Assembly: GCF_000383975.1 (NCBI RefSeq)
Contig: NZ_KB913017.1
Span: forward strand, 937,133 to 1,001,132
Direction of reading: 5' to 3'
From: Natronorubrum tibetense GA33
GTDB taxonomy: Archaea; Halobacteriota; Halobacteria; Halobacteriales; Natrialbaceae
DNA length: 64,000 bases
In this document: positions 54,703 to 62,033 of the stretch, in pieces
How positions within the stretch are numbered: the first letter of the stretch is position 1
How the letters are laid out: each line of letters starts with the position of its first letter
Made by a program: the position numbers and the translations under genes
Notes under the pieces: generated by a model
The model's input: only the letters and a program-made list of their open reading frames with translations
Database searches by the model: none
What the model was told of the DNA's origin: nothing

Positions 54703-55527
54703 TTAGCTGCGGAGCTTCTCGATGCGCTTCTCGGTCGGCGGGTGGGTCGCGAACAGCTGTGCCATGAGGCTCTTGTCGGAGTTGAAGATACAGAGTGCGG
54801 CCTGCCCGTCGTCGATGGTCGACTCGCGGTTTTCCGACCCCTGCGAGATCTTCTCGAGGGCGCGGGCGAGCGGGTCGCCGCTGCCGATGTACTGGCGGGC
54901 GTCGTCGTCGGCGACGTACTCGCGGTACCGGGAGATGGCCATCACGAGCACCGTCACGAGCATCTGGGCGATCATCGAGAGCACCATCCCGACGATGAAG
55001 CCGCCGGGGTTGTCCTCGCCCGCGAACACGTAGACGAAGTAGACGGCATAGCCGACCATCATCCCGATGGAGCTGCCAACCGTCATCATGAGCACGTCGC
55101 GGTTCTTGATGTGGGCGAGTTCGTGGGCGATGACGCCCTCGAGTTCGTCGCGGTCGAGCAGCCGGATGAGCTCCTCGCTGACGACGACGACACCGTCACC
55201 CTTGCGGCCGGTCGCGAAGGCGTTCGGGACGCCCATCTGCTGAACCATCAATTTGGGTTTATCGATACCCATGTCGCGGGAGAGCGACTCGGTCATCCGG
55301 TGAATGTCCGCGTACTGGCCGGTTTCGGGCATCTCTTCGGCCTTTCTGGTGGCGGCCCAGGTCCCGATTTTGTACTGGATGAACGGGAACGTAACCAGCA
55401 ACAGCAAGACGATCGGCCACGCCCCTGTACCCAGGAACGCCAGTCCGACGGCCCCGACGAACAGGTATAACGCCGCCAGCATCGAGCCGACGACGAACAT
55501 CCGCAGTTTCAGTCCGAAGTCTGTCAT
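54703..55527 (-). CDS. htpX: HtpX-like M48 membrane zinc metalloprotease
   Basis: 274 residues from ATG 55527 (MTDFGLKLRMFVVGSMLAALYLF). Two N-terminal membrane helices, the HExxH motif VIAHELAHIKNRDVLMM, then two more helices, the third zinc ligand region SRYREYVADDDARQYIG and the closing FATHPPTEKRIEKL. It degrades damaged membrane proteins, complementing LonB. An in-frame start at 55638 adds 37 residues and is less likely. Confidence 0.95.
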   Translation of the reverse strand: MTDFGLKLRMFVVGSMLAALYLFVGAVGLAFLGTGAWPIVLLLLVTFPFIQYKIGTWAATRKAEEMPETGQYADIHRMTESLSRDMGIDKPKLMVQQMGVPNAFATGRKGDGVVVVSEELIRLLDRDELEGVIAHELAHIKNRDVLMMTVGSSIGMMVGYAVYFVYVFAGEDNPGGFIVGMVLSMIAQMLVTVLVMAISRYREYVADDDARQYIGSGDPLARALEKISQGSENRESTIDDGQAALCIFNSDKSLMAQLFATHPPTEKRIEKLRS

Positions 55528-56049
55528 AGACAGGGGTAAGTGATCATGATGTATAAACATCGCGGGATATACCGACGGATCCAGCGGTGCCGTCACCCGG
55601 TCCCACAGTGTGCTCCCGGTTGCTGATCGATCCGTCATTGCCGGTGATAGGTCCGTCGAGCGGTACGTCCAGAGGGCGTCGCGCCAGCCGAAGAAGAGCG
55701 AAATTCATAAGTCGGTTCCCGTCCCTCTCACTCGTATGACCCACTCCGCTCGCGTCGTCGTCTCTCGTCGCGTGAGTGGACCGTCTGCGGCTCCTTTTGG
55801 TAAAAAACGCCCGTAACGTAACCAGTGCTCGAGGCGGGCGTAGCACCCCCGTCCCGGGCGCGACCTCGACGCAGTCAGGTCGAGTTCGATTCCACGCCTG
55901 ATACGGATGTACTGTACCGATTTACCGGCGCAACCGTCGACCGGATCGCGGTTGCGCCGTAAATGACTTACAGTAAACCGTATGACCCACGACGCGCGAA
56001 TAACCAATCCCAAGTACCCAGCAGCCGACTCAGATAGCAACACCCACCC
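55528..56049. other. Intergenic region before dapA
   Basis: 522 bases without an established gene. A TATA-like TTCATAAG (about 55704-55711) precedes a possible 26-residue leaderless reading frame (ATG 55736 to TAA 55816, MTHSARVVVSRRVSG...), which is basic and of doubtful reality. The large dyad at 55910-55975 is listed separately. Confidence 0.4.
55910..55975. promoter_or_regulatory. Nested dyad upstream of dapA
   Basis: TTTACCGGCGCAACCG (55921-55936) pairs with CGGTTGCGCCGTAAA (55949-55963), with one bulged C; an outer pair TACTGTA (55910-55916) with TACAGTA (55969-55975) flanks it with similar spacing on both sides. The loop is 12 bases. It ends 75 bases before the dapA ATG. Confidence 0.6.
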
Positions 56050-56979: not shown

Positions 56980-57743
56980 CGGTACGGGTCGGCGTCACCG
57001 GGGCCACCGGCCGAATGGGACGAGAAGTGATCGCCGCCACAGCGGACCACGCCGACTGCGAGGTCGTCTTCGCGGTCACCCGGGAACCCGAGGGCGAGAC
57101 GGTCGACGACGTCGACATCGAACCCGCAGACGACTTCGACGCGCTGGTCGTCGAGCACGAGCCCGCCGTTGTGATCGACTTCACCGGTCCCGATTCGGCC
57201 GTCGATTACGCCGAAGCCTGCGCCGACGCCGGCGTCGCCTTCGTCACGGGAACGACGGGCTTCGACGATGGACAGCGCGAGGCCCTCGAGTCCGCGAGCG
57301 AGGAGGTCGCCGTCCTCCACGCGCCGAACTTCGCCCGCGGGGTCCAGGCCCTGCTGAACGCTGTCGGCGAGGCCGTCCGAAACCTGCCAGGCTACGACGT
57401 CGAACTCGTCGAGACCCACCACAACGCGAAACGCGACGCGCCGAGTGGCACCGCAAACCGGCTGCTCTCCGAGATCGAGGCCAACGGCGACTTCAACGGC
57501 CGTACCCACGGCCGCGAAGGTGAGGACCCGCGCGAGGAGGGTGAGATCGGCGTCCACGCGCTCCGCGCGGGCAACGTCACGGGCGAACACGAAATCGTCC
57601 TCGCGGGCAATCACGAGGAGGTTCGACTCACCCACCGCGCCGAGGACCGCGGGGTCTTCGCCGCGGGCGCGGTCGACGCGGCAGTTTGGATCGCTGGACA
57701 GAAGGCGGGCGACTACGACTTCGCGGACGTGATTAGCGAATGA
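56976..57743 (+). CDS. dapB: 4-hydroxy-tetrahydrodipicolinate reductase
   Basis: 255 residues. Rossmann motif VGVTGATGRMGREVIA at the N-terminus, FVTGTTGFDDGQ, APNFARGVQALLNAVG and the substrate/catalytic motif ETHHNAKRDAPSGTAN. It reduces the DapA product with NAD(P)H. Overlaps dapA and dapD by four bases each. Confidence 0.96.
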   Translation: MTVRVGVTGATGRMGREVIAATADHADCEVVFAVTREPEGETVDDVDIEPADDFDALVVEHEPAVVIDFTGPDSAVDYAEACADAGVAFVTGTTGFDDGQREALESASEEVAVLHAPNFARGVQALLNAVGEAVRNLPGYDVELVETHHNAKRDAPSGTANRLLSEIEANGDFNGRTHGREGEDPREEGEIGVHALRAGNVTGEHEIVLAGNHEEVRLTHRAEDRGVFAAGAVDAAVWIAGQKAGDYDFADVISE

Positions 57744-58576
57744 GCACGCTCGAGACCGAGATCGACGAACTGTGGGAGCGCAAGCAAAACGACGACGTCG
57801 GCGTCGAGACCGTCGGCGAGGACGAAAAAGCGACGCTCGACGCCTTCCTCGAGGCCCTCGAAGAGGGCGAGGCTCGCGCCGCGGAGAAACGGGGCGACAC
57901 CTGGGAGGCCAACGAGTGGGTCAAGCAGGGCATCCTGCTCAACTTCGGCCTGCGCGAGACCGTCCCCCGCGAGTACGGCGGCGTCACGTACAACGACGTC
58001 CTTCCGCTCGCGGACTCGAGCGGGTACGGCGACCGCGGGAGCCGCAACACGCCCGACGGAACCGTCGTCCGCAAGGGCGCTCACATCGGCTCGGACTGCA
58101 TCCTGATGAGCCCGGCCTTCGTCAACATCGGAGCCCACATCGGCGACGGCACGCTCGTCGACTCCTGTGACACCGTCGGCTCCTGCGCCCAGATCGGCGC
58201 GAACGTCAAACTCGGCGCGAACACCCTCATTGGGGGTGTGCTCGAGCCAGTCGAGGACGCACCGGTCATCGTCGAGGATGGCGTCTCGCTCGGCGCGGGC
58301 TGTCGCGTCACCTCGGGGTTCGTCGTCGGCGAGAACAGCGTCGTCGGCGAGAACACGCTGCTGACGCCGCGCATTCCCGTCTACGACCTCGTCGAAGACG
58401 AGGTCCTCTACGGCGAACTGCCGGCCGACCGCCGCGCGTTCACCCGCTTCGTCGAATCTTCGATCAGCGACCACGCGCTCTTCGACGGCGGCGCCTACAA
58501 ACCGGCCGTCGTGGCGACGGATCTGGAGACGGAGACGCTCGAGGCGACCGAGCGCGAGGACGCGCTGCGGGAATAA
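57740..58576 (+). CDS. dapD: 2,3,4,5-tetrahydropyridine-2,6-dicarboxylate N-succinyltransferase
   Basis: 278 residues. The left-handed beta-helix hexapeptide repeats are clear (VRKGAHIGSDCILMSPAFVNIGAHIGDGTLVDSCDTVGSCAQIGANVKLGANTLIGGVLEP, in short stretches). It succinylates the tetrahydrodipicolinate ring, so this organism uses the succinylase branch of the DAP route. Its last codons (TETLEATEREDALRE) are copied at 59836-59883. Confidence 0.95.
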   Translation: MSTLETEIDELWERKQNDDVGVETVGEDEKATLDAFLEALEEGEARAAEKRGDTWEANEWVKQGILLNFGLRETVPREYGGVTYNDVLPLADSSGYGDRGSRNTPDGTVVRKGAHIGSDCILMSPAFVNIGAHIGDGTLVDSCDTVGSCAQIGANVKLGANTLIGGVLEPVEDAPVIVEDGVSLGAGCRVTSGFVVGENSVVGENTLLTPRIPVYDLVEDEVLYGELPADRRAFTRFVESSISDHALFDGGAYKPAVVATDLETETLEATEREDALRE

Positions 58577-58710
58577 GCGGAAACGGCCGACACTGTTTCT
58601 TCGTCCGTTGGTCGACTCCACTACCGTTGAATCGAGATTTGAGGAGCGCTAACACCGGATCGAGCGTGTAAATGTCCAGCAGACACCAGAGAGTGAGCGA
58701 AAATTCCCAG

Positions 58711-59625
58711 TCAGGAACGGGTTCTGTACTCGTTGAGTACCCAATCGTACGTCTCGCAAAACGGTTCGGGATCCATGTAGAACGCACCTCGCAGTTCCTC
58801 AAGTCCCGCTTTCTCTTCGATACCTGTGAGCAACGCTAAGCCGACACGATAGGGGAGGCGCAGTTCGCTGAAAAGCCGTTTGAACAGCGTATCGCGCGAT
58901 ACCGCCCCGTCTCGAAGCGTTTGGCGGAACGAATCGTACTTCACGACGAGGTCGCTCAACAGTGCCTCGTCAGCTAGCACGCGGTAGTCTTCGCAAAGTG
59001 CGTGGTCGTGACCGCCGACGTTTCCGTCCGCTTTTCGCAGTTTGAGCGGCGTATAGGTGGCGAACGCTTCGGTGTGAACAATCGTATTGAAGACCCGCCA
59101 CTGCACCTCTCGAGAGCGCATCGGCTTCGAACCCAGTTCCGTGATCGAGCCGTGTTCCCGCTCGTAGAGGACGTGAGAACTCTCGTGGATGGCAGTGTAG
59201 AGTAACTGCCGTGGCGACTCGAGGAAAAACGGGTCGTTCAGGTTCACGTACGCGCCGGATCCCAAACCGATTCCGAGTTCGTAGCCGATGGCCAAATGAA
59301 GGATTACGTCCGAGACATCCTCGTCCGGTGTGACGCGTAGCAGCTGTCGATCGATTAGGTCGGTCCACTCGGCTTCCTGGGAGCGGACGTGATCGAGCAA
59401 TCGATCGATCCGGTCCCGGTTTTCAGTGACGTCTTCCACCTCGGAGAACGTGGTCCGTTCGCCATTCATCGCCCGTTGAACGTCTGCCTGCGTGAGATCC
59501 CGGCCGAGTACCGATGCGTGTTTGCGTGCGATTTCGTAGGCTGGATGCCCCCAGATCCGTGACAACGGCACGTCGCCATCTGCGTAGGAGAGAAACAAGT
59601 CGGCGGCAGACCCGTCTATCTGCAT
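58711..59625 (-). CDS. Putative zinc metallopeptidase (HExxH), inserted in the lysine operon
   Basis: 304 residues from ATG 59625. The metallopeptidase motif is LLYTAIHESSHVLYEREHGS (HExxH, near residue 145), and HTEAFATYTPLKL about 45 residues later may give the third ligand. Not acidic as its neighbours, no signal peptide or membrane helix. It sits on the opposite strand between dapD and lysA, with duplicated dapD and lysA pieces on its far side. Family not identified. Confidence 0.7.
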   Translation of the reverse strand: MQIDGSAADLFLSYADGDVPLSRIWGHPAYEIARKHASVLGRDLTQADVQRAMNGERTTFSEVEDVTENRDRIDRLLDHVRSQEAEWTDLIDRQLLRVTPDEDVSDVILHLAIGYELGIGLGSGAYVNLNDPFFLESPRQLLYTAIHESSHVLYEREHGSITELGSKPMRSREVQWRVFNTIVHTEAFATYTPLKLRKADGNVGGHDHALCEDYRVLADEALLSDLVVKYDSFRQTLRDGAVSRDTLFKRLFSELRLPYRVGLALLTGIEEKAGLEELRGAFYMDPEPFCETYDWVLNEYRTRS

Positions 59626-60018
59626 GCCGTTCAGTGGTCACGACGACGAAAAAATTCCTCCGGTATCGGATCTCGTGACCAAGTGCGGGAATTCAGACCC
59701 TCGAATCCTCACGGTCAGTTCGGGTGAGCAAGGGCTACGTTCGCGGAATCGCCGGCCATCCGTCGGCTCGTCAACTGAGGCGTAGCGCGACTCGAGTCTC
59801 TCGCCGACTACGGCTCGTCGCTATACGTCCTCAAGACGGAGACGCTCGAGGCGACTGAACGCGAGGACGCGCTGCGCGAGTAGTCGAACCCTTCGGAATT
59901 CGACGGAAGCAAGGTCAATGCGGTCGACGGGCTGTTTGTTGCTGGAGGTCACCTTGTCGAACCGAAAGTGACACGATATCATGATCTGCGATTCGAACGC
60001 GGTCCGTGACTCGCTCCA
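59626..60018. other. Inter-gene region with the lysA/dapD chimera
   Basis: 393 bases without an intact gene. Besides the chimeric relic (59778-59883) the DNA is ordinary and shows no other features. Confidence 0.45.
59778..59883 (+). pseudogene. Relic: lysA 5' fragment joined to dapD 3' end
   Basis: From 59778 (GAGGCG) the DNA follows lysA 60654-60710: it reads RLESLADYGSSLYVL beside lysA LRDLVADYGSPLYVL. At about 59834 it switches, in frame, to the last 15 codons of dapD: KTETLEATEREDALRE and a stop (TAG 59881-59883). The two parts lie in an order opposite to the functional genes. Confidence 0.75.
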
Positions 60019-60417
60019 TCAGCTGTTTCGCTCGGATTCCAGATTCCGCTCGTCCACCCCCTCGCCAGCGTCCTCGAGGAACGTCTCCGCGTCGGCTACG
60101 GATTCGGTCTCGAGGAGACGCGTGACGCGCCGCTCGAACTCCTCTTCGTCGATTTCCCCGCTAGCGTACCGCTCGCGAAGTGTTTCGAGCGGTCGTTGCT
60201 GCTCGTTGTTAGTGTGGGGCTGTGAATCGTGTGTTGCGCTCGAGGACTGTGTCTCGTACCACTGGGCGAGTTGGACGGCCGCCGGCAGGACGAATGCGAA
60301 TCCGATCACGAACACGATCCAGAAGTTCGACCAGCCGAGAAACAGCAGTCCGAGAGCCAGTCCGACGGTCAACATACTGACGGCGCTGCTGACGACTGCG
60401 GTTAGCGGCTGTGTCAC
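60019..60417 (-). CDS. SHOCT-domain membrane protein
   Basis: 132 residues from ATG 60417. Two membrane helices (residues 8-28 and 32-52) are followed by a Gln/Ser-rich linker and a SHOCT motif PLETLRERYASGEIDEEEFERRVTRLLETE (about residues 78-108). Such proteins are abundant in haloarchaea and uncharacterised. It lies, like the HExxH gene, inside the lysine operon and opposite to it. Confidence 0.85.
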   Translation of the reverse strand: MTQPLTAVVSSAVSMLTVGLALGLLFLGWSNFWIVFVIGFAFVLPAAVQLAQWYETQSSSATHDSQPHTNNEQQRPLETLRERYASGEIDEEEFERRVTRLLETESVADAETFLEDAGEGVDERNLESERNS

Positions 60418-60599
60418 TATCCAACATCTTATCGATGAGAAAGAAAAGTTTACCGGGCTGTCAGTACCGTGTAAAGAGCCACCGGTGACACCGATTTTCG
60501 GGAGCGACGGCTCCGGCGAATCTCACAGCCATCCCTTTCACTGACAGTTGAATCCGGAAATCCAAACTCTTGAATTGTTACGCTCATTACGAATGACCA

Positions 60600-62033
60600 A
60601 TGACTGAGTTCGCCGAGTCACCTGCCGTCCGCCGTCTCGTAGACTGGGACGCGGAGGCGCTGCGTGATCTCGTCGCCGACTACGGCTCGCCGCTGTACGT
60701 CCTCGATCTCGAGCGCGTCCGCGAGAACGCTCACCGAATCCGGTCTGCGTTTCCGGACGCAGAAATCCTCTACGCCGTGAAGGCGAACGCTCTGGGAGAC
60801 GTCCTCGAGACCCTCCACGCGGAAGGCGTGGGTCTCGAGTGCGCCTCCGCAGGCGAACTCAAGCGCGCGCTCGCAGCTGTCGACTCGAGCACCGAAGGCG
60901 ACGCGACGGGTGCGGACGTCCACTACACGGCCGTCAACCCGCCCGCGCGTGACCTCGACTGGGTCGTCGACGCCTGGGAAGACAATCCCGACCTAACGAT
61001 CACCGCTGGAGCCGAGGATACGATCGACCGCCTCGAGAACCGGGGCTACGACGGCCGGCTCTGTCTCCGGGTCAATCCGGGCATCGGCGCGGGCCACCAC
61101 GAGAAAGTCCAGACCGGCGCCAACGCGAAGTTCGGCGTCCCCGCAGAGCGCGCGGTCGACGTGCTCACCGACGCCGCCGAGCGCGGCTTCGACGTCGTCG
61201 GCATCCACGCCCACGTGGGATCGGGCGTCTCGAGCGACCAACTCGACGATCACCGGGAGTTCGTCGAGCGGATGGGGAATCTGGCGCGAGACGTGAGCAA
61301 CGCGATCGCGGCCGTCGACGGCGACGGCCTCGAGTTCGTCGACGTCGGCGGCGGCTTCGGCGTTCCATATCGCGACGAGGAGGAACCACTGGACCTCGAG
61401 GCGGTCGCCGATGCGACGCGCGAGGCGATCGGCGAGGTCGACGCGAGGCTGACGATCGAACCCGGCCGCTACTTCGTGGCCGACGCGGGCGTCCTCCTGA
61501 CCGAAGTCAACACCGTCAAGGAGGCCCGCGACACGCTCGCGGTCGGCGTCGACGCCGGAATGACGACGCTGCTCCGGCCCGCGATGTACGACGCTTACCA
61601 CCCGATCCGGAATCTGACGGCGGACTCGAGCACCACCGGCGGGCACGGCGGCGACACCGACACGAACAACAGCCACACCAGCCGCGAGATCCGCCCACAG
61701 ACCATCACCGGCCCGATCTGCGAGAGCGGGGACGTGTTCTGTACCGACCGTCGACTGCCTGCGAGCGAGCGCGGCGATGTCCTCGCGATCGGAAACACGG
61801 GGGCCTACGGCTACGAGATGGCCAACCAGTACAACTCCCGTCCCCGGCCGGCCTCGGTCGTCCTCGACGGCGACGGCGTGCGACTCGCCCGTCGCCGCGA
61901 GACGCTCGACGACATCACTCGGCTCGAGACCGAGCGCTCCGACCCGACGGACAAAGCCGGCGGCGCCGGATCGAACGGGAACGCTGATACCGACGCAGAC
62001 CGAGAAGCACATAACGGCCACGATACTCGATAG
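60600..62033 (+). CDS. lysA: Diaminopimelate decarboxylase
   Basis: 477 residues. PLP fold III barrel with the lysine in EILYAVKANALGDVLE, HHEKVQTGANAKFGVP, GIHAHVGSGVSS, FVDVGGGFGVPY, TIEPGRYFVADAGVLLTEVNTVK and TGPICESGDVFCTDR. It makes lysine from meso-DAP. A Gly/Asp/Thr-rich insertion (residues about 340-360) and a polar C-terminal tail lengthen it compared with bacterial LysA (about 420). An N-terminal piece is duplicated at 59778. Confidence 0.95.
   Translation: MTEFAESPAVRRLVDWDAEALRDLVADYGSPLYVLDLERVRENAHRIRSAFPDAEILYAVKANALGDVLETLHAEGVGLECASAGELKRALAAVDSSTEGDATGADVHYTAVNPPARDLDWVVDAWEDNPDLTITAGAEDTIDRLENRGYDGRLCLRVNPGIGAGHHEKVQTGANAKFGVPAERAVDVLTDAAERGFDVVGIHAHVGSGVSSDQLDDHREFVERMGNLARDVSNAIAAVDGDGLEFVDVGGGFGVPYRDEEEPLDLEAVADATREAIGEVDARLTIEPGRYFVADAGVLLTEVNTVKEARDTLAVGVDAGMTTLLRPAMYDAYHPIRNLTADSSTTGGHGGDTDTNNSHTSREIRPQTITGPICESGDVFCTDRRLPASERGDVLAIGNTGAYGYEMANQYNSRPRPASVVLDGDGVRLARRRETLDDITRLETERSDPTDKAGGAGSNGNADTDADREAHNGHDTR

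Follow-up and report, generated by a model that had tools for sequence, protein, structure and literature searches.

Gaps between conserved genes can act as hotspots that hold varying accessory genes, and the exchange of these genes is thought to proceed via the flanking core genes (2017, PMC5635113). Homology-facilitated illegitimate recombination, with joints at 3-10 bp, has been documented in the laboratory in transformable bacteria (PMC6382021). Haloferax volcanii is without Ku and joins breaks by annealing of short words (MMEJ; review PMC7776575). In Natrinema gari J7-2, a non-conserved gene of the lysine cluster, hyp4048, lies between dapD and lysA (PMC10433800).

The locus described here is located in a stretch of 64,000 nucleotides from Natronorubrum tibetense GA33 (contig NZ_KB913017.1), referred to as the window. 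It resembles the core-gene hotspots in carrying variable accessory genes in one gap and no recognised mobile-element gene. In those hotspots, however, double homologous recombination swaps cassettes, whereas here both cassettes were kept with a chimera of the core genes between them. The addition of foreign DNA with one homologous end, and putatively with another end at 3-10 bp, recalls homology-facilitated illegitimate recombination, but the process is deduced here from the genomes of archaea in nature, with an illegitimate end that repeatedly falls on the same position of dapD. The joints that could be resolved here lie in shared words of 5-10 bp, comparable to the short words annealed in MMEJ of Haloferax volcanii, although the products described for MMEJ are deletions and rearrangements and not additive insertions as found here. 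The gene hyp4048 occupies the same slot as the cassettes of the window; the accessible text of that report describes a hypothetical gene only, and neither a slot nor stacking nor a scar. A literature search, mostly without subscription papers, yielded no description of the slot or the scar beyond hyp4048.

In the window, dapD and lysA are separated by 2023 bp with two minus-strand genes inside, in agreement with the preliminary description, which had given a distance of about 2 kb and two opposite-strand genes. The features of the locus are as follows.

57740..58576, + strand: dapD (tetrahydrodipicolinate N-succinyltransferase), left border of the slot (ORF, Pfam THDPS_N_2 / Hexapep)
58711..59625, - strand: left cassette, HExxH protein of 304 aa (homologue alignment, predicted structure)
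59686..59832, + strand: scar part 1, remnant of the lysA upstream element together with the first ~35 lysA codons (BLAST, profile HMM)
59827..59883, + strand: scar part 2, remnant of the dapD 3' terminus (last ~54 nt), in frame with part 1, to which it is joined at CTC(A/G)AG
59884..60018, + strand: spacer between the dapD-tail relic and the SHOCT gene (colinear with the dapD-SHOCT spacer of locus L025)
60019..60417, - strand: right cassette, SHOCT-domain membrane protein of 132 aa (Pfam SHOCT, E 4e-11)
60540..60599, + strand: conserved element immediately 5' of lysA (AATCCAAACTCTTGAATTGTTACGCTCA), retained
60600..62033, + strand: lysA (diaminopimelate decarboxylase), right border of the slot (Pfam; identity to the sister species)

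The genome is congeneric with N. texcoconense (L005/G008) and N. halalkaliphilum (L025/G004). In N. texcoconense, the closest relative in the sample, dapD is followed by lysA after 51 bp, with no insert and no tail copy; it thus provides the alignment to a relative with abutting genes that the preliminary description had proposed. The sister carries neither cassette, which does not fix the order of gain and loss within the genus. N. halalkaliphilum has the arrangement dapD-SHOCT-lysA, with both the HExxH gene and the relic absent. DapD of the window is 96% identical to that of N. texcoconense at the amino acid level. No crossover within dapD was seen; DNA identity to the sister is 87-97% throughout in 100-bp steps and 94% in the last 100 bases. 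Further upstream, the region 55377-55877 in front of dapA mostly shares 77-95% identity with N. halalkaliphilum. Its identity to N. texcoconense, elsewhere the closer of the two, is only 37-80%, which suggests another recombination junction near the protease gene and dapA.

The relic between the two cassettes spans 59686-59883. It opens with the lysA upstream element (CCCTCGAATCCTCACGG), followed by ~35 lysA codons and the last ~16 codons of dapD. The reading frame is continuous over the joint, with ADYGSSLYVL leading directly into KTETLEATEREDALRE and the stop codon. A chimera of a lysA 5' piece and a dapD 3' end had been described at 59778-59883; the chimera and its frame hold, but the relic starts ~90 bp further 5'. 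That it does not result from chance similarity is borne out by BLAST within the slot, in which the lysA-like DNA yielded 73.5% identity over 151 bp (E 6e-19) and the dapD-tail DNA 91.8% over 49 bp (E 3e-17). When profile HMMs were used, the window was the top slot match for the lysA head (E 4e-22), and the dapD tail was found with E 2e-14. Reversed and shuffled slots searched in the same manner gave nothing stronger than E 0.3, and the same relic search in 1.06 Mb of flanking DNA gave nothing below E 0.02; these two controls rule out chance similarity. The lysA part of the relic contains a stop codon and indels further 5', and the relic is therefore a decayed pseudogene. Because it begins with the lysA upstream element, the HExxH gene formerly stood directly before a lysA. 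The nearest lysA head is a Haloterrigena-type one (L154, 79%), with several others at 74-77% and the resident lysA at 76%. Assignment of a donor by identity was indecisive with a relic this decayed.

For comparison, 161 dapD loci were collected, of which 149 are distinct and 135 are distinct with lysA in view. Of these 135 loci, 54 have a gap of at most 100 bp and 69 a gap of more than 300 bp. In Natrialbaceae, the gap between dapD and lysA is a slot with interchangeable contents: it is empty in some members and, where occupied, usually contains a single small cassette. These cassettes are unrelated to each other and include three PIN-type toxin-antitoxin pairs (AbrB-like/PIN, VapB/PIN and a second PIN/AbrB-like arrangement) and one MazF-type pair (MazF(PemK)/HTH); the AbrB-like partner was named by eye and has no Pfam match. 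Further occupants are the SHOCT gene, a membrane protein of no assigned function, DUF7344, an aldo/keto reductase and others. Pfam searches with ten cassette proteins and with the genes of the window identified PIN, VapB, PemK/MazF, SHOCT, DUF7344 and aldo/keto reductase, but neither an integrase nor a transposase. Long inverted repeats and no obvious cassette gene were seen in the slots of L009 (290 bp at 68%) and L016 (70 bp at 80%), and tandem repeats are present instead of an obvious cassette gene in L044. The gene lysA itself seems to have been replaced in some Natrialbaceae, as judged from two lysA lineages with a protein identity of ~52% that occupy the same locus in different members of the family (60600-62033 in the window; L019, L145, L189 and others).

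The two cassettes of the window differ in their distribution. The SHOCT protein is 81-82% identical at the amino acid level to the product of the same-slot gene in N. halalkaliphilum. A single alignment of 636 bp pairs positions 1254-1872 of the window gap with the region from -53 to +577 relative to the dapD end in that species (77.5% identity). From the dapD tail rightwards, the window is hence in unbroken colinearity with the sequence dapD 3' end-spacer-SHOCT of N. halalkaliphilum. SHOCT is present in the same slot without the HExxH gene in that species, and in L145 it follows a VapBC pair, so the two genes were acquired separately. Of the earlier proposal that one event had brought in the HExxH gene and possibly also the SHOCT gene, the rearrangement with foreign DNA stands, while the joint arrival does not.

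The HExxH gene is missing from the other 9 genomes of the genus. Homologues with 42-61% identity were found in 5 of 390 other genomes sampled from the class, always as single copies beside unrelated genes and in none of the fetched regions next to dapD. The residues H147, E148, H151 and E186 are invariant in six homologues. The AlphaFold model (mean pLDDT 88.6) resembles M1 aminopeptidases with a VIA-align Z of 9-10 and an rmsd of 3.8-4.0 over ~180 residues, with a Foldseek E of only 0.07. Based on the invariant residues and the fold match, the protein is probably a gluzincin-type metalloprotease. It has no match in Pfam, NCBIfam or PDB sequences at threshold; PADLOC matches were weak and were set aside as a basis for naming. 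A genome with dapD-HExxH-lysA alone was not found among the sampled class genomes, in which the homologues sit elsewhere. It is the relic itself that points to this arrangement as the putative left parent of the window.

Comparable scars are present in other loci. Copies of the dapD 3' end were found inside the slot in the window, L145 (g14), L149 (g2, the genus of Natrinema versiforme) and L198 (g12). The lysA 5' end is copied in the slots of the window and L155 (g2), the latter with a lysA head but no dapD tail at its joint. Haloarculaceae slots also hold dapD 3'-end copies, with breakpoints elsewhere (L063, 6952-6994; L041, 7713-7782; L059). The dapD-tail copies were counted in the retrieved loci, leaving out weak tail matches in L031, L178 and L208. 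Identity of the tail copies to the dapD of their own locus ranges from 98% to 83%; the copy of L198 is at 98% and that of L145 is decayed. Searches for lysA-head remnants 5' of the dapD tails in L145, L149, L198 and L063 gave no alignment convincingly above shuffled sequence; in L149, a piece of the lysA upstream element was recognised by eye. In all five Natrialbaceae cases, the scar separates two groups of cassettes.

Window: HExxH to the left of the scar, SHOCT to the right
L145: VapB/PIN to the left, SHOCT to the right
L149 and L155: AbrB/PIN to the left, membrane protein to the right
L198: MazF/HTH to the left, VapB/PIN-membrane protein-DUF7344 to the right

The halves of the stacks were matched to existing alleles. 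In L155, the left half corresponds to the L014 allele (dapD-AbrB/PIN-lysA) through lysA +62 (89% over 900 bp) and the right half to the L177 allele (dapD-membrane protein-lysA), with 91% identity over 894 bp between dapD +57 and the start of lysA. The left half of L149 corresponds to the L172/L159 allele up to approximately lysA -46, and its right half to the L171 allele from dapD -54 to lysA -10 (83% over 1065 bp). Both single-cassette parental arrangements therefore exist for L155 and L149, two Natrinema-type stacks, and both loci run unbroken to lysA on the right side. The right half of the window corresponds to the L025 allele from dapD -53 (77.5% over 636 bp, the alignment given above), and its left half ends at about lysA +105. 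For L198, the right half matches an L145-type allele from dapD -52 (86% over 753 bp). On the side of the joint away from dapD, the breakpoints of L145 and L198 could not be fixed exactly, as no parent was found for it. Judged by these alignments, each scar is the right end of one slot allele joined to the left end of another.

On this basis, we consider it highly probable that homology-anchored illegitimate recombination between slot alleles stacked two cassettes and left the scar behind. In this lineage, an allele dapD-HExxH-lysA would have come together with DNA from an allele dapD-SHOCT-lysA. Of the two ends of the incoming DNA, one would have been resolved by ordinary homologous recombination in a flanking gene (the lysA 5' end or dapD). 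At the other end, the lysA 5' part of one allele would have been joined illegitimately to the dapD 3' part of the other at CTCGA, which is common to both. The expected product, dapD-HExxH-[lysA 5' / dapD 3']-SHOCT-lysA, would retain both enzyme genes intact as well as both cassettes, and the fusion would decay as a pseudogene. For the window, we infer the exchange between strains, the homology-anchored end and the microhomology mechanism from this comparison. The preliminary description had held that a duplication plus insertion or a circle was required for the reversed order; a single joint of two slot alleles gives the same order and parental arrangements are known from other loci, so that a duplication or circle is possible for the window joint but not needed.

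Shared words at the joint could be resolved for the window and L155, but not for L145, L149 and L198. The L155 joint lies inside a 10-bp word (GGCGCTCGTC) shared by the L181-type lysA and the L177 spacer. In the window, the sequences at the joint are GTCCTCGAT for lysA, TCTCGAGACGG for dapD and GTCCTCAAGACGG for the relic; we assume that the relic joint represents a CTCGA-joined product with one later substitution. As for the anchored end, the first 150 nt of lysA in L149 are 98% identical to L152, which carries VapBC only, vs 86% to the membrane-protein parent L171, and dapD of L149 is equally near L152 and a membrane-protein locus. The lysA flank of L149 is thus of the VapBC-only type and dapD does not contradict this, indicating that the second cassette entered a resident VapBC allele, for which homology on the lysA side served as the anchor, and that the other side was joined illegitimately. 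The window is in keeping with this polarity, with dapD sister-like throughout and the lysA 5' part less so: the first ~470 nt of lysA are 84% identical to the sister vs 91% for the rest, a weak signal that is the third lowest of 92 comparable pairs. The dapD-side breakpoint is located -52 to -54 nt from the stop, at CTCGAG, in four of the five Natrialbaceae joints. No hexamer of the window is commoner than CTCGAG, with 243 copies vs 159 expected under a maximal-order Markov model. The placement at this frequent word speaks for the recombination between alleles, although plain microhomology joining would not call for a position this constant. Also counting against it are the lack of a dapD-HExxH-lysA genome in the sample, the decay of the lysA relic, the sister without either cassette and the weakness of the lysA 5' signal.

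This regularity bears on two of the other explanations. Site-specific integration at an att site in the dapD 3' end, in which dapD is restored and the old tail is displaced as an attR-like repeat, would account for tail copies that begin at -52 to -54 in four genomes whose cargo differs. Displaced gene ends in the form of repeats are a hallmark of integrative elements, such as those targeting tRNA genes, and a displaced 3' gene end as a direct repeat is present in the window, L145, L149, L198, L063, L041 and L059. Yet neither HExxH, SHOCT nor the Pfam-tested cassettes include an integrase, many relatives carry single cassettes without a tail repeat, and the Haloarculaceae copies begin elsewhere. 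Part of the lysA 5' region also belongs to the window scar, and the lysA head of L155 comes with no dapD tail, which leaves site-specific integration very unlikely. A single founding scar in an ancestor, which later served as an extra homology arm for swapping cassettes on either side, fits the identical breakpoint in four genera and the position of SHOCT, which lies to the right of the scar in L145 as it does in the window. It is nonetheless unlikely, if somewhat less so: the SHOCT allele of the window is nearer to that of the scarless N. halalkaliphilum (with its colinear spacer) than to that of the scarred L145, the joint of L155 differs, and the 98% identity of the L198 tail to its own dapD next to the decayed tail of L145 indicates different ages.

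Least probable of all, in our view, is a tandem duplication, within one genome, of a segment reaching from the end of dapD into the start of lysA, with later divergence or replacement of the spacers. It would yield exactly the order lysA 5'-dapD 3' at the joint, where the resident dapD and lysA both have GATCTcGAG-like words, but the HExxH and SHOCT spacers share only their ends, and the resident lysA is not the nearest match of the lysA relic. In L155 and L149 this explanation is largely refuted, as the halves match two different existing alleles and not each other. Beyond these alternatives, we regard it as a speculative addition, and a rather doubtful one, that CTCGAG in the dapD tail is a preferred cut or annealing site and that addiction to a resident VapBC or MazF pair selects against clean replacement, so that the slot accumulates cassettes. 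If true, the scars would record addiction-driven gene gain. Of the 5 scarred stacks, 4 carry toxin-antitoxin cargo, compared with 17 of the 64 remaining occupied slots (Fisher p 0.03, a post hoc comparison with small numbers).

With respect to expression of the lysine genes, an element directly 5' of lysA, with the consensus CCAAACNCTTGAATYCTC ~40 nt before the start, was found in loci with and without inserts. It is kept in the window and also in the relic. The dependence of lysA-dapF-dapE on a new promoter, as suggested earlier, is not supported; since lysA retains its upstream element whatever precedes it, there is no reason in the sequence to postulate one.

Taken together, the individual mechanisms are known, and the recurrent scars with surviving parental arrangements are a variant of recombination-driven hotspot growth. 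Core-gene hotspots are well known, but the growth of a slot from one insert to two is seldom caught. Here, the preserved joint and, for two stacks, both parental arrangements make it possible to reconstruct an additive transfer during which the flanking biosynthetic genes were kept. The scar, to which the left gene contributes a copy of its 3' end and the right gene one of its 5' end, is a simple marker that could be searched for at every syntenic gap in archaea and bacteria. The toxin-antitoxin cargo of the scarred stacks, although based on small numbers and a post hoc comparison, provides a testable link between addiction and the accumulation of genes in the slot.
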